Shown here piece by piece: positions 52,141-61,575 of a DNA stretch of 64,000 nucleotides. The notes under the pieces were generated by a model. It had not been told where the DNA came from. It did not search any database and was given only the letters and a program-made list of their open reading frames with translations. The stretch comes from Sulfuricurvum sp. (GTDB lineage Bacteria > Campylobacterota > Campylobacteria > Campylobacterales > Sulfurimonadaceae): NCBI RefSeq assembly GCF_028710345.1, contig NZ_JAQTUH010000007.1:1-64000 (forward strand). The letters run 5' to 3'. Each line of letters begins with the position of its first letter. Position 1 is the stretch's first letter. The translations under genes and the position numbers were made by a program.

Positions 52141-53182
52141 GTGTTTCCTTGAGTAAGTGAGCGACCCGTTGTGCACTTCCTGATTTTAGAAGCGTATGCA
52201 ACAGTGCCGAATCGTTAAAAAATTGTTCTCTATCCATTTGAATATAGCAATTATACAGATTTTCTGCCGTTACTGCATCTTGAATAAATTCAGGGTGGAG
52301 AGGACGGTGGTATTCGTGCATAAAAAGGAGATTTCCCAAGCCAGCGTATTCGAGTTTAATTAGTGCTCGTCCGATCATGTAATCGAGTTTTTTAGCGATG
52401 TAGACGAGGGCGAAGGGGGTACGGATGAGTGATGCTTCGAGAGTTGCCGTTCCGCTACAGATAAAGGCAAAATCAGATTGCGAGAGGGTGGCGTGGGCAT
52501 CGTGCGTGATGGTAAATGCACTGATGTCTCCATAGAGCTCTTCGATTTTTTCTTCACTAAAATGGGGAGGGATGACAAGCATCGCGGTACATTCAATTTT
52601 CTCCCGCACCTCTCTAAAAATTCCCATCAGTTTTCGTATCTCTCCCGGACGGCTTCCGGGCATAAAGGTGATGATTCCACTTGGTGCGAGAGATGTTTTG
52701 TGTACCGTTATCTCATCGAGTAATGGATGTCCGACGTATTCAATAGGAGCAGTAGGAGAATAGTAGCTTGGTTCAAACGGGAGGATAGAGCAGAGCCGAG
52801 TGATTGTTTTTTCGAGTACAGGAATCCGTTTTTTCTTCCATGCCCATGCTTGGGGGAGGATGTAATAGATGATTTCTTTGTCAGGATAACGTTTACGGAT
52901 GGCTTTGGCCAAGGGGAGATTAAATCCTGAAGAATCAATCAACAACACTTTGTCTGCATCTTCTGCTAACTCCACCATCTGATCTTTGAGTCTGAAGAAA
53001 AAGGGGAGTTTGGTAAGTGCATCGACAAACCCCATAATAGCGGTTGAACGCAAATCGATGATACTTTCCCCTAAAGAGGCATCAAAAATACCGTTGAGTT
53101 GAACATCATCTCCTAACTCTTTGAGAAGATAGCGTAAATGGACATTGGCGGAGTGTTCGAGTGCGGAGATTAAGAGTTTCAT
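52133..53182 (-). CDS. lpxB: Lipid-A-disaccharide synthase
   Basis: This 349-residue glycosyltransferase joins two acylated glucosamines to make the lipid A disaccharide. Characteristic parts are the N-terminal LISALEHSANVHLRYL, YYILPQAWAWKKKRI, FMPGSRPGEIRKL and CSGTATLEASL. It is somewhat shorter than the E. coli enzyme. Its ATG overlaps the upstream cytochrome c stop (ATGA), and an unknown membrane gene follows. Confidence 0.92.
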   Translation of the reverse strand: MKLLISALEHSANVHLRYLLKELGDDVQLNGIFDASLGESIIDLRSTAIMGFVDALTKLPFFFRLKDQMVELAEDADKVLLIDSSGFNLPLAKAIRKRYPDKEIIYYILPQAWAWKKKRIPVLEKTITRLCSILPFEPSYYSPTAPIEYVGHPLLDEITVHKTSLAPSGIITFMPGSRPGEIRKLMGIFREVREKIECTAMLVIPPHFSEEKIEELYGDISAFTITHDAHATLSQSDFAFICSGTATLEASLIRTPFALVYIAKKLDYMIGRALIKLEYAGLGNLLFMHEYHRPLHPEFIQDAVTAENLYNCYIQMDREQFFNDSALLHTLLKSGSAQRVAHLLKETHD

Positions 53183-53541
53183 GAACTGCCATCTCCGGTA
53201 TTAGAATCATCGGGAGCATATTTCTTTTTGCTTTGCTCATGAAACTCACTTAAAAAGGTGGTGAGTTGATCGATTTGTGTATCGTTTAATGCCATAGCAA
53301 AAGGGATCATCATTTGAGCCAATTGGGTATCTCCTTGTTTCGAACGGAGTCGTTTTAGTTTGTACTCTAAGAAAGCTTTGCGGCGATAGGCGAGGGGAGG
53401 GTAGAGATTTGTCCCACCGGCATTAATACCGTGGCATCCGTTACACCCTTTGGAAAAATAGAGTTTTTTTCCCATCTCATACGGTGAGGGTACAGCAAAT
53501 AACCAAAGTGTATAACTAAAAACGAGAATAAAAAAACGCAC
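53179..53541 (-). CDS. Class I cytochrome c
   Basis: This protein of about 120 residues has an N-terminal signal or anchor (about 1-17), a heme c motif C33-N-G-C36-H37, and a later Met in MMIPFAMALND as the likely second ligand. The start is GTG 53541 with AAAGGGAA 5 bases upstream; a 53673 start would add 44 unrelated residues. It is a small periplasmic electron carrier. Its C-terminal tail (DDSNTGDGSS) is disordered. It overlaps lpxB by 4 bp. Confidence 0.82.
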   Translation of the reverse strand: MRFFILVFSYTLWLFAVPSPYEMGKKLYFSKGCNGCHGINAGGTNLYPPLAYRRKAFLEYKLKRLRSKQGDTQLAQMMIPFAMALNDTQIDQLTTFLSEFHEQSKKKYAPDDSNTGDGSS

Positions 53542-53672
53542 AAGTTCCCTTTTTAAACCTTCATAGATTACAATGGCGTTATTATAACTGACCTTACACG
53601 CTTTTACAAAAAAGGGTGTATAGATACCTCTAATATTCTCAAAACAACGTTTTGAAGCTTTAGGGGATTGCA

Positions 53673-53718
53673 AAGGACTTTAGTCCTTGCCACTAAAACG
53701 GATGCATTCGTTTTAGTG
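53673..53718. repeat. Two adjacent perfect hairpins
   Basis: Stem 1 is AAGGACT/AGTCCTT (53673-53679, 53682-53688). Stem 2 is CACTAAAACG/CGTTTTAGTG (53691-53700, 53709-53718), separated by an 8-base loop. They lie between the divergent cytochrome c and pyrC-like genes, so they may be operators or 5' leader structures. Confidence 0.65.
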
Positions 53719-55488: not shown

Positions 55489-56898
55489 ATGAACATTTCA
55501 AGACGTGATTTATTTAAGTTTGCAGGACTTAGTGCTGCAGCTGCCGCAGTCAGCGGATGTAGTACTAAAGCATTTGATCCACTTCCCGCGAAAGCAGCAG
55601 CACCTGCTAGTGTTATGCTCGGTAAGCATCAAGTAGTTGTTATTGGTGGTGGTTTCGGTGGTTTGACAGTTGCCAAAGAACTCAAAAAGATTGATCCTAA
55701 ATTTGATGTTGCGATTATTGAAAAAAATGATAGTTTTATGTCATGCCCATTCTCAAACTGTAATCTTGGTGGAATCCAAGGTGTTAACCTTGGTACATTA
55801 ACACATGACTATTCTCAAGCAGTTGAGGCAAATGGTTATGGTATGTTGACGGCAGTCGTTACAGGGATCGATCGCGTAAACAAAATCGTGTATACCTCTA
55901 AAGGTTCAGTAGTGTACGACATCTTGGTTTTGGCTCCAGGTATTGATTACAATTACAAAGGACAATTTCCAACATGGGATGCGGCAAAAATTGCAAAAGC
56001 TAAACGTTTAACTCCAGCTGCATTGGTTCCGGGTGGCGAGCATATCGCATTGGATCGTATGGTTAAAAACATGGAAGATGGTGATGTAGTTATTACTGTA
56101 CCGGCAGGTAAATACCGTTGTCCTCCTGCACCGTTTGAGCGTGCAAGTATGATTGCTAACTACATGAAAAAAGAGGGGATTAAAGGTAAGGTAATTATCT
56201 TGAATGAAACTGCTGAAGTAGCAAAAGGGGCAGCATTTAAAGAAACTTGGAAAGATCTCTATGCCGGTGTTGTTGAGCACATGGATAACTGTAAAATTGT
56301 AGATGTTGATTTTGCTAAGAAAGAGATTACTTACGTTCAAACAGTTTTTGCTAGTAAAGATGATACAGAAGGTGTTAAAACAACCAAAACACAAAAATAC
56401 GGTATTTTCAATTTCATTCCACACAATATGTCTAATCCGGTCATTGAAATGTCAGGTGTTGCTACTACTGCTGATGGATTCAAAAAAGTTAAAATGGCAA
56501 CAAGTGCTGAAAAACCGGTTTCATTTCAAACAGCTACAGATACGTCTGTATATGCAGTTGGTGATGTTGTTGGTCATAAAATTCCACCAAGTGGTCAATC
56601 AGCTATTTGGTCAGGTAAAGAGTGTGCAAAAGAGATCGCTCACGTCCTTCATGGTAAATCGTACAGTGTTGCCTCAGCTCTTCCGTATAAAAGTGCAAAC
56701 GTATGTTACTCAATGGTAAATGGCAATCCTGAAGAAGCTATCATGGTTAATCATGAATTTATGGTTGACGGTCCGGTTATCGGAAGTAAAGGGTCTGTTC
56801 CAAAAGGGGATACAGTTAACGACAAATTTCGCTCAACTGGTCTAGGAAAAGCAACGCACGATTGGTACAAAGGTGCTATGAGAGATTTGTTTAGTTAA
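55489..56898 (+). CDS. FccB-like flavoprotein (sulfide dehydrogenase family), Tat-exported
   Basis: This 469-residue FAD protein has a Tat signal (R5-R6, SRRDLFKF) ending in VSGC (C24), so it may be a Tat lipoprotein. The FAD motif is GGGFGG (53-58). Cysteines C86 and C91 lie in SCPFSNCN, and C211 lies in KYRCPPAPFERA, the FccB-type redox cysteine region; another follows in ANVCYSM. FccB oxidises sulfide and passes electrons to a cytochrome. No diheme FccA is adjacent; instead a Rieske protein and a cytochrome c'-like gene follow. ATG 55489 has AGGAG upstream. Confidence 0.85.
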   Translation: MNISRRDLFKFAGLSAAAAAVSGCSTKAFDPLPAKAAAPASVMLGKHQVVVIGGGFGGLTVAKELKKIDPKFDVAIIEKNDSFMSCPFSNCNLGGIQGVNLGTLTHDYSQAVEANGYGMLTAVVTGIDRVNKIVYTSKGSVVYDILVLAPGIDYNYKGQFPTWDAAKIAKAKRLTPAALVPGGEHIALDRMVKNMEDGDVVITVPAGKYRCPPAPFERASMIANYMKKEGIKGKVIILNETAEVAKGAAFKETWKDLYAGVVEHMDNCKIVDVDFAKKEITYVQTVFASKDDTEGVKTTKTQKYGIFNFIPHNMSNPVIEMSGVATTADGFKKVKMATSAEKPVSFQTATDTSVYAVGDVVGHKIPPSGQSAIWSGKECAKEIAHVLHGKSYSVASALPYKSANVCYSMVNGNPEEAIMVNHEFMVDGPVIGSKGSVPKGDTVNDKFRSTGLGKATHDWYKGAMRDLFS

Positions 56899-56914
56899 AT
56901 CTAAGTATGTCCAT

Positions 56915-56960
56915 CGTCATTCAGCCTTTTTCGTTCCTACTCTCCCGAGTGGGAATGACG
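56915..56960. repeat. Dispersed palindromic element with CGTCATTC/GAATGACG ends
   Basis: CGTCATTC (56915-56922) and GAATGACG (56953-56960) are perfect inverted ends of a 46-bp element in the 123-bp gap between the FccB-like and Rieske genes. The inner half has ACTC/GAGT pairing. The ends match the element at 61.1 kb. Confidence 0.65.
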
Positions 56961-57021
56961 TTAAAATTTACAAAAAACCTGCTAAACTACACATCACGAA
57001 ATCATTCACACGGAAATTATC

Positions 57022-57747
57022 ATGGATAGAAGAAATTTTTTAAAAGTCATTGCTGGAGCAACAGTTATTGCAGTCAATCCTTCATTGATTAAAGGGACCC
57101 TTTATGCGGCTGATGGTACGTTATATCAAGCGTATGAGAAAGCTCAATTAGTAGATGGAGCAGGAAAGCCTATCAAAGCTACTACACTCGAAAAAGAGGT
57201 AACCTATATTTTTAACTACCCGTATGCTTCAACTCCTTGTATGTTGATTAATCTTCCAAACTCTACTAATAAAGATGTTGATCTAAGTTCTGAAAATGGG
57301 GAAAAGTATATTTGGAAAAGTGGAGTAGGTAAAGAGCGTACAGTTGTAGCATACAGTGCAATTTGTGCACATCAGTTGACACATCCTACCCCAGCTGATA
57401 GTTTTATCGCTTATGTGCCATTAGCTAAAAAAACAATGGCATATGAAAAAAGTGGTGTTATTGTTTGTTCGTCTCACCTCTCTGCTTACGATGCTGCTGC
57501 CGGTGCTAAAGTTTTAGGTGGTGCAGCAACGCAACCGCTCGCTTCAGTTGTATTGGAAGTAGCATCGGATGATACTATCTGGGCCGTTGGAGTTTTAGGT
57601 TCGGATAAATTTCAAGACTATTTTAAATCATTTAAACCAGAGCTTAAACAGTTTTATAATGGTCCGGCAGAAGCAAAAAAACTTGTCTCTATTTCGGCTA
57701 AAACCGTTAAACTTACTGAGTTTTCAAAAGAATTGATTCAATACTAA
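57022..57747 (+). CDS. Tat-exported Rieske iron-sulfur protein
   Basis: This 241-residue protein has a Tat signal (DRRNFLKVIAG, R3-R4), then a Rieske domain with C115-A-H117 and C149-S-S-H152 as the [2Fe-2S] ligands. The cysteines that form a disulfide in bc1-type Rieske proteins are absent, so a lower potential is likely, as in arsenite oxidase small subunits. Its position between FccB-like and cytochrome c genes suggests it is an electron-transfer partner for sulfide oxidation. Confidence 0.85.
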   Translation: MDRRNFLKVIAGATVIAVNPSLIKGTLYAADGTLYQAYEKAQLVDGAGKPIKATTLEKEVTYIFNYPYASTPCMLINLPNSTNKDVDLSSENGEKYIWKSGVGKERTVVAYSAICAHQLTHPTPADSFIAYVPLAKKTMAYEKSGVIVCSSHLSAYDAAAGAKVLGGAATQPLASVVLEVASDDTIWAVGVLGSDKFQDYFKSFKPELKQFYNGPAEAKKLVSISAKTVKLTEFSKELIQY

Positions 57748-57758
57748 AAGGAGAATGG

Positions 57759-58187
57759 ATGAAAAAGATTTTAGTAACCATAGCACTTTCTGCATTTGTA
57801 GCAAGTTCTATCTATGCAACAGACAAATCTAAATCACAAGATAACGATCATCGTACAATGCTGATGAAAGATATGCGTACCATGTTAGAAGCAATGGAAC
57901 AGATTCAACGAGGTGGACTTTACAGCTCAACAGATGAGATGAAAATAGGGGTAAAAAAACTTCAAGGTACTCTTAAAACATTAGAGAGTGATGAGGTAAA
58001 ATGGATTTTGCCAAAAGATCAAAAATATGCATACCAATTTGCTCAAAAGACAGCGAGTATGTTACATCTCTATTCTAATGATATGATAAGTTCAATTGAA
58101 GCCGGTCGGATGGATGATGCTCTAGAAGATTACTCGCAGCTTTTAAAGCAGTGTACATCTTGTCATATTCGTATCCGCAACTGGTAA
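57759..58187 (+). CDS. Cytochrome c'-like monoheme protein
   Basis: This 142-residue protein has a signal peptide (1-20, SIYA|TD), a mostly helical body and a C-terminal heme motif CTSCH (132-136). Heme at the very C-terminus after four helices is the pattern of cytochrome c' and related proteins. It follows the Rieske gene by 11 bp and probably accepts its electrons. The axial ligation cannot be told. Confidence 0.82.
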   Translation: MKKILVTIALSAFVASSIYATDKSKSQDNDHRTMLMKDMRTMLEAMEQIQRGGLYSSTDEMKIGVKKLQGTLKTLESDEVKWILPKDQKYAYQFAQKTASMLHLYSNDMISSIEAGRMDDALEDYSQLLKQCTSCHIRIRNW

Positions 58188-58515: not shown

Positions 58516-59847
58516 ATGAAATTAGGAAAATTGAGTTTAGTTGCTGTAATGGCATTGGGAACAAGCGTATACGCTCTTGATGATATTAAAGTAGATGGTG
58601 AAGCAAAACTTTGGTATCAAACATCTGAATTTTCTGGTGCGGGTGCGGGTGCAACTACATCACAAAGTTTTTTTGATCATAACACAAACTCATCTGCTGA
58701 AGCAAGATTGAGTGTAGGTGCTTCTGCAAAACTACTTCAAAACATCAGTGGTGCAGTTAAAATGACAGCACTTTCAACACTTGGTCTTGAAAATAATTTG
58801 GTTGGAGCCGTTCCAGCTGCTAAATACAATAATTCAGGTGCGTTAGCAGCTGGTCAATTAAATGATCAAGCATGGATGGAAGTTGCTAATTTAAAATATG
58901 CTCAAAAAGAGTTCGATGTAGCAATGGGACGTATGGCGCTTCAAACTCCTCTTTGTTTCACAGAATCATGGAACGTCGTTGACAATACGTTTGAAGCGGC
59001 TGTAGCGCATGGTTATTTCTTGCCTGATACTATTTTAGCAGCTGCATGGGTTGGAAAACATAATGGTGTTGGCTTGCTTCCAGCAACAGGTCGTGGTACA
59101 ACGGTAGCAAACGGTGGAGCATTTAGTACATTTGGTAGTGATGGTGCGTATGCGTTTGCAGCGATTAATAAATCTGTTCCAAATACAACTTTTCAAGGAT
59201 GGTATTACAATGTACCAAGTATTGCAGATGCATATTGGTTGCAAGCAGATACAAAATTGATGGGTATGATTGATCTTGGAGCACAATTTGCAGGTATGAT
59301 GCCTAAGCTTGGTAACAATACAGTAATTGCTGCTGGATATCCATCTGGAGCTGAAAATCTTGATGTGGTTAAAAAAGATTCAAATGTTTTGGCTGTTAAA
59401 GCTGCCGTTGATGTTTCTGGTGTAAATGTTTATGCAGCGTATTCAAAAGTTAGTACTGGTACTCTTGGATTTGCAAACGTTGCTACAGGAGACAAAACAA
59501 TGCTTTATACCGGTCTTGGAAGTGTCTATATGGATGGCGAAATTGTAGCAGCACCAGATACTAAAGCGTTTAAAGTTGGGGCTTCTACAAAAATGGTTCC
59601 AGGTGTAACTCTTTCGACAAGTTATTGTTCTGCTAAAGTAGGTGCTAATAGTGGAGCACTTGGTGCAGTTGCTCGTGCTGCAACTACTGATACTGATTTT
59701 TCTGCATGGGATGTTGTTGCAAATACAAAAGTTGGAATGCTCGATTTGACAGCTATTTATACATCATTTGATAAAGATGTTAAAGCGACAGATACTACAG
59801 ATAAAACAACCGATACACTTCGTATTATTGCTTCTTTGAAATTCTAA
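58516..59847 (+). CDS. Major outer-membrane porin of Campylobacterota type
   Basis: This 443-residue protein has a signal peptide (about 1-20, SVYA|LDD). The mature chain is Gly/Ala/Thr-rich with alternating strand pattern and ends LRIIASLKF, the aromatic end of outer-membrane barrels. Blocks such as FDVAMGRMALQTPLCFTESW and FEAAVAHGYFLPDT recur in Campylobacterota porins. It is probably abundant, consistent with its strong ribosome site. Substrate preference is unknown. Confidence 0.85.
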   Translation: MKLGKLSLVAVMALGTSVYALDDIKVDGEAKLWYQTSEFSGAGAGATTSQSFFDHNTNSSAEARLSVGASAKLLQNISGAVKMTALSTLGLENNLVGAVPAAKYNNSGALAAGQLNDQAWMEVANLKYAQKEFDVAMGRMALQTPLCFTESWNVVDNTFEAAVAHGYFLPDTILAAAWVGKHNGVGLLPATGRGTTVANGGAFSTFGSDGAYAFAAINKSVPNTTFQGWYYNVPSIADAYWLQADTKLMGMIDLGAQFAGMMPKLGNNTVIAAGYPSGAENLDVVKKDSNVLAVKAAVDVSGVNVYAAYSKVSTGTLGFANVATGDKTMLYTGLGSVYMDGEIVAAPDTKAFKVGASTKMVPGVTLSTSYCSAKVGANSGALGAVARAATTDTDFSAWDVVANTKVGMLDLTAIYTSFDKDVKATDTTDKTTDTLRIIASLKF

Positions 59848-59934: not shown

Positions 59935-61575
59935 TTAGACTCTTTTTTCTTGCCGTTTTGGCGTAATACTCTTTTCATTTTTTTGATGCATTGTGTGTGA
60001 TGATTGTCTCAAGAAAAACGGGATCGTTTTTTCAGGGCGTTTTGCTAAATCGTCGATTAATGCTTCTTCAACGTTCTCTTTTTCATGGTATTGGAGGAGA
60101 TAGGTGTGTAATAGCATAATTTGGCGTTCTAATGATATTTTCCATGTGGATAGGGTTTGGGTATAGATCCATTCGCTGAAGGCGTAGAAGCTTTTAAAGA
60201 CACTTGTTTCGTCACTGCGAGGCATAGTCGTGGCAATCCACAATAATTTTACAGTTTTATCAAAACTCCCGCTATTGTAAAAAATATCCCAAAATCGTGC
60301 GAATCGTTTCATCTTTTGTATCTGCTCAAAACTGAGCAGATTGTTTTGGAGGATATCGTAGGGAGGTGTGTCGCTATAAATCATCCCGTGCTCTTTATCA
60401 TGCCGTGATAGGGTGGTTCCTGAGAGATTTTTCAAGATGCCGATTTGGATTTCACTGTGGGTGAGAGAGACAAGCTTATCCAGATTACGACCGAATCCCT
60501 CTAATGTTTCACCCGGTAATCCGACGATGAGATCGAGGTGCATGTGTGAGGAGGTCTCATTTTCTAAAAAGCGGATGTTCTCATAGATTTTTTCGACACG
60601 TAAGGGGCGGTTTATCCCTTTAGCTATCACAGGATCGAGTGTTTGAATACCGATTTCGAGTTGCAATGAACCTGCGGGGAATCGGGCAATTTTTTCTTTG
60701 AGTACATCGGGGAAATGATCGGGTATCACTTCGAAATGGGCAAAGTAGGGGGGCTCTTTAGAGAGAAAAAAGTCCAAAATACGGTTAGCAAAGGTCATAT
60801 TGAGATTGAAGGTACGGTCGATGAATTTGAAACTTCGTGCACCCCGTTGCCAAAGTGTTTCAAACTCTTCGAGCAGTTCATCGAGGGGAAAATTACGCAC
60901 TTTTTCATCGATGGAGGAGAGGCAAAACTCACACTCGAAGGGACAGCCGCGTGATGCTTCGACGTAGAGGGTGCGGTTGGCAATATCTTCATCACTGTAG
61001 GCACGGTAGGGCATGGTAATGGATTTGAGATCAACCATAGGGGCTTTGATGAAATGGGGCTTTCCCTTCGTCATTCCCGCGAAGGCGGGAATCCAGCTTT
61101 TTTCTTTGGGATGGCTTTCAGAAGAGATGCTAGATCCTGAATCAAGTTCAGGATGACGAGCTAGATTCCCGCCTTCGCGGGAATGACGAGAGGATAATAT
61201 CTCCTTACACAACTCATAAAATGCCACCTCCCCCTCGCCACTGATGATATAGTCAGCTTTTGAAAAATCAACACGGTGGGGAAGATGTCCCGCTTCAGGG
61301 CCACCGAGGACGATGATGATTTCGGGTGAGACTTTTTTGAGTATCTCGATGAGTTGAGCGGTTTCCGATGCATTCCAGATATAGACACTGATCCCAATGA
61401 TACGTGGAGAGTGTTTGAGAATCTCTTCCGCGATGGTTTGGATTTGTTCATTGATAGTAAATTCAACGATTAGTGCATCGTTTTGGTATTCATGGAGATT
61501 GGCATAGAGATAGCGAAGTCCAAGTGCGCTGTGGGCATATCGGGCATTGAGAGTGGTGAGTAAAATAGTACTCAT
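59935..61575 (-). CDS. B12-binding radical SAM protein carrying a palindromic insert
   Basis: This 546-residue protein has a cobalamin-binding-like N-terminus (about 1-120; GISVYIWN, VLGGPEAGH), then residues 130-169 encoded exactly by a 120-bp palindromic element, then the radical SAM core with C211-x3-C215-x2-C218 (RGCPFECEFC), and a C-terminal DUF4080-like region. Without the insert it would be about 506 residues, a common size for this family. The element lies between the two domains and keeps the frame, so the protein may still work. It overlaps the ParA-like gene by 4 bp. Confidence 0.85.
   Translation of the reverse strand: MSTILLTTLNARYAHSALGLRYLYANLHEYQNDALIVEFTINEQIQTIAEEILKHSPRIIGISVYIWNASETAQLIEILKKVSPEIIIVLGGPEAGHLPHRVDFSKADYIISGEGEVAFYELCKEILSSRHSREGGNLARHPELDSGSSISSESHPKEKSWIPAFAGMTKGKPHFIKAPMVDLKSITMPYRAYSDEDIANRTLYVEASRGCPFECEFCLSSIDEKVRNFPLDELLEEFETLWQRGARSFKFIDRTFNLNMTFANRILDFFLSKEPPYFAHFEVIPDHFPDVLKEKIARFPAGSLQLEIGIQTLDPVIAKGINRPLRVEKIYENIRFLENETSSHMHLDLIVGLPGETLEGFGRNLDKLVSLTHSEIQIGILKNLSGTTLSRHDKEHGMIYSDTPPYDILQNNLLSFEQIQKMKRFARFWDIFYNSGSFDKTVKLLWIATTMPRSDETSVFKSFYAFSEWIYTQTLSTWKISLERQIMLLHTYLLQYHEKENVEEALIDDLAKRPEKTIPFFLRQSSHTMHQKNEKSITPKRQEKRV
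61069..61188. repeat. 120-bp palindromic element inside a coding region
   Basis: The 29-base ends (61069-61097 and 61160-61188) are inverted repeats matching at 28 of 29 positions, starting CGTCATTCCC and ending GGGAATGACG. The centre has the stem TCCTGAA/TTCAGGA. The length is exactly 40 codons and the boundaries fall on codon boundaries of the radical SAM gene. Confidence 0.9.

Follow-up and report, generated by a model that had tools for sequence, protein, structure and literature searches.

Gene organization of the locus

We analysed a stretch of 64,000 nucleotides from a Sulfuricurvum sp. genome (contig NZ_JAQTUH010000007.1, positions 1 to 64,000; hereafter the window). Three genes form one run on the + strand, encoding an FccB-type flavoprotein, a Rieske protein, and a class II cytochrome, and a porin gene lies downstream. 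The three genes were confirmed at the coordinates below.

55489..56898, + strand: FccB-type FAD flavoprotein, 469 aa, Tat signal with the twin arginine at residues 5-6 (FCSD_central, structure matches, and alignment)
55558..55560, + strand: codon of the lipobox Cys24 (VSGC), read directly from the sequence
55744..55746, + strand: codon of Cys86, aligned with the FAD-linking Cys42 of 1fcd (phmmer alignment)
56119..56121, + strand: codon of Cys211, redox-active pair, equivalent to Cys161 of 1fcd (invariant)
56704..56706, + strand: codon of Cys406, redox-active pair, equivalent to Cys337 of 1fcd (invariant)
56931..56958, + strand: hairpin with a 12-bp stem in the FccB-Rieske spacer (strand folding; z of the whole spacer only -1.45)
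57022..57747, + strand: Rieske [2Fe-2S] protein of 241 aa with a Tat signal; its core is AioB/SoxL2-like and is followed by a conserved C-terminal extension of about 45 residues
57364..57477, + strand: region of the Rieske cluster ligands, C115-x-H117 ... C149-x-x-H152; disulfide cysteines absent (alignment)
57759..58187, + strand: class II cytochrome of 142 aa with a single haem motif, a signal peptide, and a four-helix-bundle fold
57873..57875, + strand: codon of Met39, the predicted sixth ligand of the haem (invariance, profile, and structure)
58152..58166, + strand: haem-binding motif C132-T-S-C-H136 (direct sequence; invariant)
58516..59847, + strand: Opr-like outer-membrane porin (opr_porin_1, E 3e-9, below the cut-off)

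All three proteins of the run carry export signals in their sequences, Tat signals on FccB and the Rieske protein and a signal peptide on the cytochrome. A sequence-only reading of this DNA had described a Tat-exported FccB-like protein, a Tat-exported Rieske protein, and a cytochrome with a C-terminal haem in one run, and its coordinates, strand, and motifs were all confirmed. The Rieske and cytochrome genes are 11 bp apart. The gap between the FccB and Rieske genes is 123 bp with the hairpin inside it, and a terminator scan of this gap found no intrinsic terminator, only the hairpin. This gap could uncouple the expression of the two genes in the window.

Two other features of the region were noted. 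The hairpin is related to a palindromic element at 61069-61188, which lies inside the coding frame of a radical-SAM gene (59935-61575); the ends of the two elements are CGTCATTCCC / GGGAATGACG. A gene for a small class I cytochrome c (53179-53673, - strand) adjoins lpxB-like and dihydroorotase-like genes, and it is kept at this site in Sulfuricurvum (family 7).

The FccB flavoprotein and its possible partners

The flavoprotein scored 92.5 bits against FCSD_central (cut-off 27, E 2.5e-26) and also matched Pyr_redox_2. Its best relatives of solved structure were the flavoprotein subunits of 5n1t, 3vrd, and 1fcd, of which 5n1t was the closest (E 7e-48). By phmmer, C86, C211, and C406 align with Cys42, Cys161, and Cys337 of the Allochromatium (Chromatium) enzyme 1fcd, and together with the FCSD_central match this agrees with the FccB-type cysteines and chemistry proposed earlier. 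The redox-active pair C211/C406 and E217, the Glu of the catalytic region, were invariant in an alignment of 16 FccB relatives. A covalently bound FAD is predicted from the aligned C86. The lipobox at C24 follows the twin arginine and is found in almost every FccB of its lineage (FccB1, see below). C24 is probably a lipid anchor, and the earlier suggestion to this effect appears reasonable.

The window system shares with FccAB (1fcd, 3vrd) the FccB fold, the FAD-linking Cys, the redox-active Cys pair, the Glu, and periplasmic export, but it has a lipobox, and no FccA class I haem subunit lies beside FccB, where the Rieske protein and the class II cytochrome are found instead. This arrangement supports the idea that FccB has a different electron path in a sulfur-oxidising member of the Campylobacterota. 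5n1t is the Thioalkalivibrio paradoxus enzyme, in which FccB is partnered by a CopC-like copper protein and not by FccA; it differs from the window system in having no Rieske partner.

A canonical FccA elsewhere in the genome that partners this FccB had been named as an observation that would refute the earlier proposal. Among the class I cytochrome matches of the genome, two class I haems within a single frame were seen only in PetC and CcoP, and an unlinked dihaem FccA was rejected on this ground. The objection keeps some force for monohaem cytochromes. A search of the genome with a monohaem cytochrome that is linked to FccB in other Campylobacterota gave a best E of 0.01, and several unlinked monohaem cytochromes are encoded, one of which might be a partner of FccB. 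The genome also encodes soxXYZAB, bc1, and cbb3. The soxXYZAB genes are on another contig and no sox genes are near the window FccB, which is thus not a gene inside a sox cluster, as would be expected of the SoxF type.

The nearest precedent for the trio is the dhsU1-Rieske-dhsU2-sox cluster of an uncultured Sulfurihydrogenibium (LSSB), where two FccB-like genes flank a Rieske gene and a cytochrome-like gene and sox genes lie alongside (PMC3504083). Both loci have an FccB-like gene adjoining a Rieske gene and a cytochrome-like gene in the cluster. The LSSB flavoprotein oxidises sulfide; recombinant DhsU1 does so in monomeric form, with cytochrome c from horse (PMC3504083). The LSSB cluster differs in having two flavoprotein genes and sox genes. 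Its Rieske protein was not studied there, and the likeness described here is one of gene arrangement.

The Rieske protein

The ligands C115/H117 and C149/H152 were invariant in 27 relatives. The motifs (CAHQ and CSSH) are not flanked by disulfide cysteines, in line with the earlier remark that this protein lacks the bc1 disulfide. The window protein was below the cut-off of the Pfam Rieske profile and scored 48 bits against the AioB family TIGR02694 (cut-off 95.65). The NCBIfam profiles SoxL2 and arsenite_ox_S matched all 27 relatives, with the window protein under both curated cut-offs. Its AlphaFold2 model (pLDDT 89.3) matched AioB chains with Z 14.0-14.5 (1g8j_B, Z 14.5, rmsd 2.1 over 126 residues), and the Sulfolobus Rieske protein named SoxF (1jm1) with Z 11.9. 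From about residue 195 onward there is a conserved extension past the AioB core, in which F197, F201, and F204 are invariant. We therefore describe the protein as AioB/SoxL2-like. Like AioB (1g8j, 8ed4), it has the Rieske fold and no disulfide cysteines, as in the aligned Alcaligenes C65F-C80G-type sequences, and AioB hands its electrons to cytochrome c. Unlike AioB, it has no AioA, a CSSH in place of CPGH, a longer insert between the ligand pairs, and the C-terminal extension.

These matches raise the question of whether the protein is part of an arsenite-oxidase-like or bc1-like enzyme, its position near FccB being accidental. AioB chains are its best structural matches, and the SoxL2 and arsenite_ox_S profiles point the same way. 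However, the genome has no AioA (the best match was 54 bits against a cut-off of 359), so arsenite oxidase was rejected. A bc1/b6f Rieske was rejected as well, since the disulfide cysteines are missing and petABC, with its own PetA, is on another contig. Linkage to FccB is moreover universal in our sample (see below). An accidental neighbourhood is thus largely refuted and we regard it as highly improbable.

With the Rieske protein as query, a plasmid search returned one distant arsenite oxidase small subunit only. A search of genome contigs returned Campylobacterota and one short contig labelled Petrimonas, which is probably misbinned.

The class II cytochrome

The cytochrome has a single CxxCH (C132-H136), close to the C-terminus of its 142 residues. 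Its model is a four-helix bundle (pLDDT 90.8), and the bundle with a C-terminal CxxCH is the architecture of cytochromes c'. Chains of c' and b562 came out on top in the fold search, but the E-values were weak, and high scores come easily to helical bundles. The window protein scored 14.9 bits against Pfam Cytochrom_C_2 (PF01322; cut-off 26.5), a profile that matched 26 of 32 relatives, mostly weakly. M39, C132, C135, H136, and R140 were invariant in these 32 relatives. M39 falls on Met7 of cytochrome b562 both in the sequence-profile alignment and in the structure comparison, whose register sets model residue 33 against b562 residue 1; Met7 is a haem ligand of b562. Because of this position of the invariant M39, we predict from sequence and model a six-coordinate, low-spin Met/His class II carrier (b562/c556-like) rather than a five-coordinate c'. 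The weak Pfam score and Met39 speak against a plain cytochrome c'. Of the earlier description as cytochrome c'-like with a C-terminal haem, the haem position was confirmed and the c' label was dropped. The protein has in common with b562 and class II cytochromes c the four-helix bundle, a Met on helix 1, and, for the c types, the C-terminal CxxCH, but its sequence is only marginally similar and its family is linked to FccB-Rieske or to bc1.

A paralogue (26% identical) lies directly behind petABC, the bc1 genes, in the same genome (L093:5737-6132, contig C1). Similar petABC-trailing paralogues were found in several Campylobacterota genera (L120, L121, L122, L125, L127, L129, L130, and L131). 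This ties the cytochrome family to electron transfer at the level of cytochrome c. The class II cytochrome behind petABC is itself a candidate electron acceptor of bc1.

Conservation of the trio in Campylobacterota

We sampled 397 Campylobacterota genomes and took 4 kb as the neighbourhood. A Rieske protein of full-length similarity was encoded in 40 genomes (41 copies). FccB was within 4 kb of 40 copies, and the 41st is on a short contig with the end of FccB at the contig edge, which makes 41 of 41. The cytochrome was within 4 kb of 28 of the 41. The FccB-Rieske grouping is far beyond chance. Had the trio not been conserved together, the earlier proposal would have failed; this objection does not hold.

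The converse is not true. FccB (E < 1e-40) was found in 87 of the 397 genomes and the Rieske protein in 40, and thus FccB often occurs without it. The exceptions include FccB1 itself, which has no neighbouring Rieske gene in two related genomes (G060 and G379). Some Rieske-less FccB sit behind a monohaem cytochrome of 98-99 residues, as in classical monohaem FccAB (L114, L115). One Sulfuricurvum genome (L043) has the Rieske gene alone, with no FccB match anywhere in that genome. In two other genomes, a second, SQR/NDH-2-like flavoprotein lies just behind the Rieske gene and replaces the cytochrome (L075:8977-10182 and L084:9310-10515).

Exchange of the flavoprotein

The FccB proteins adjacent to the Rieske gene fall into two groups, FccB1 (the window form) and FccB2, which are about 35% identical. 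In the Rieske tree, Sulfuricurvum and its close relatives form one clade (100/99) whichever FccB lineage adjoins, and the well-supported branches over the whole tree force at least three partner changes between Rieske and FccB lineages. The site of exchange is often shared, with dihydroorotase-like and chorismate mutase genes upstream and a radical-SAM gene downstream. At this site there is FccB1 in L034, L040, and L063, FccB2 with SoxYZ in L038 and L049, and FccB2 alone in L066. Since a single Rieske clade at a shared site is met by two FccB lineages, the Rieske-cytochrome pair appears to be the fixed element of these loci and the flavoprotein the interchangeable one.

The two lineages differ in their company. 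SoxY, whose tail is GGC plus one residue, and SoxZ are encoded between FccB2 and the Rieske gene, or nearby, at 18 of 30 FccB2 loci versus 0 of 26 FccB1 loci; some of these loci are duplicates from a single genome (e.g. L041/L064, L044/L090, and L053/L066). When the Sulfuricurvum-like loci were limited to those with 3 kb or more of sequence downstream, a porin followed at 9 of 9 FccB1 loci versus 0 of 14 FccB2 loci (roughly 10 without duplicates). The porin at 58516-59847 may admit the substrate of the FccB1 system. In the SoxYZ-linked operons of the Sulfuricurvum/Sulfurovum type, FccB2 has a Gly at the position of the FAD-linking Cys. In L038, L041, L049, and L090, SoxYZ lies between such an FccB2 and the Rieske gene and no other sox gene was seen in the operon. 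These operons possibly encode a Sox-linked dehydrogenase.

The SoxYZ genes suggest that the natural substrate might be protein-bound or zero-valent sulfur (SoxYZ-S-SH, polysulfide, or S0) and not free sulfide, as an alternative to SoxCD. Work cited in PMC3504083 reports that a SoxF flavoprotein stimulates the oxidation of thiosulfate in vitro. However, the window form is the one that never accompanies SoxYZ, and DhsU1 was inactive on sulfur, sulfite, and thiosulfate (PMC3504083). We think such a substrate improbable.

A proposed electron path

From the gene content, the cofactor residues, the conserved linkage, and the module exchange, which were established directly, we infer a substrate, a physical complex, and an order of electron flow. 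Our favoured reading, which we hold to be rather probable, is that the genes specify a sulfide (or polysulfide) dehydrogenase of the periplasm, probably anchored to the membrane, with the path FAD, Rieske, class II cytochrome, oxidase. FccB, with its predicted covalent FAD and redox-active cysteine pair, would oxidise reduced sulfur to zero-valent sulfur. The electrons would leave the flavin singly to the AioB-like Rieske [2Fe-2S] cluster and pass to the Met/His class II cytochrome, the paralogue of the one encoded behind bc1. They would then enter at the level of cytochrome c (e.g. the cbb3 oxidase), bypassing quinone, and move onward to terminal reductases. The Rieske-to-cytochrome step is suggested by the AioB fold match, since the Rieske subunit of AioAB feeds cytochrome c552 (PMC10071563), and AioAB may be seen as its structural analogue. 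Onto the constant Rieske and cytochrome module, either FccB1 or FccB2 with SoxYZ would be plugged as the flavoprotein module. Several observations count against this path: for 13 of the 41 Rieske copies no neighbouring cytochrome was found, the Rieske protein occurs without FccB in L043, FccB1 lacks a Rieske neighbour in G060 and G379, the 123-bp gap with its hairpin could uncouple FccB and Rieske expression in the window, and flavoproteins of the DhsU1 and SoxF type reduce cytochrome c as monomers (PMC3504083).

Alternatively, FccB alone might be a monomeric sulfide dehydrogenase of the SoxF/DhsU1 type that reduces a soluble cytochrome c, with the Rieske-cytochrome pair as a separate, co-regulated shuttle. 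DhsU1 and SoxF-type flavoproteins are active with cytochrome c as monomers (PMC3504083), and thus the Rieske protein is not chemically required for cytochrome c reduction. Many Campylobacterota FccB have no Rieske gene nearby, and flavoproteins were exchanged beside the same Rieske protein, which a tight interface would resist. On the other hand, all full-length Rieske copies of the phylum sample adjoin FccB, which would be surprising if the two were not functionally tied. The SoxF monomers (Paracoccus, Chlorobaculum) resemble the window system in being FccB-type flavoproteins without an obligatory FccA, and the FccB2 lineage lies with SoxYZ. They differ from it, since the window system has a constant Rieske-cytochrome pair and sits outside a sox cluster. 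We consider the FccB-alone explanation unlikely.

A broader form of the favoured path can be put forward only tentatively. The Rieske protein and the class II cytochrome may be the wire of a modular dehydrogenase, taking electrons from interchangeable flavoproteins by a quinone-independent FAD-to-Rieske entry. One flavoprotein, with its own porin, would act on free sulfide or polysulfide, and the other, with a non-covalent FAD, on SoxYZ-bound sulfur.

Implications for sulfide oxidation in Campylobacterota

FccB of Campylobacterota has been listed as a sulfide dehydrogenase, and it was termed non-canonical in one Sulfurimonas (PMC10066037; PMC12403661). The main texts of these two papers make no mention of a Rieske partner. 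In the open-access literature searched, no account of the trio, of its cytochrome, or of the exchange of flavoproteins came up, and an FAD-to-Rieske step was found described for no sulfide dehydrogenase. The trio is real, conserved, and interpretable, and we regard it as a variant of the flavocytochrome c/SoxF kind and not as a new category.

In vents, sediments, and groundwater, Campylobacterota belong to the major sulfide oxidisers, and metagenome surveys score fccB as a gene of canonical flavocytochrome c. Should the Rieske-cytochrome pair be the partner of FccB, the electron entry point and the energy yield would differ from those of SQR, and possibly from those of FccAB. The SoxYZ-linked form would give a testable route by which SoxYZ-bound sulfur is oxidised without SoxCD. 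The exchange of flavoproteins in place, beside a constant pair, is a natural experiment in which substrate specificity would be directly testable.
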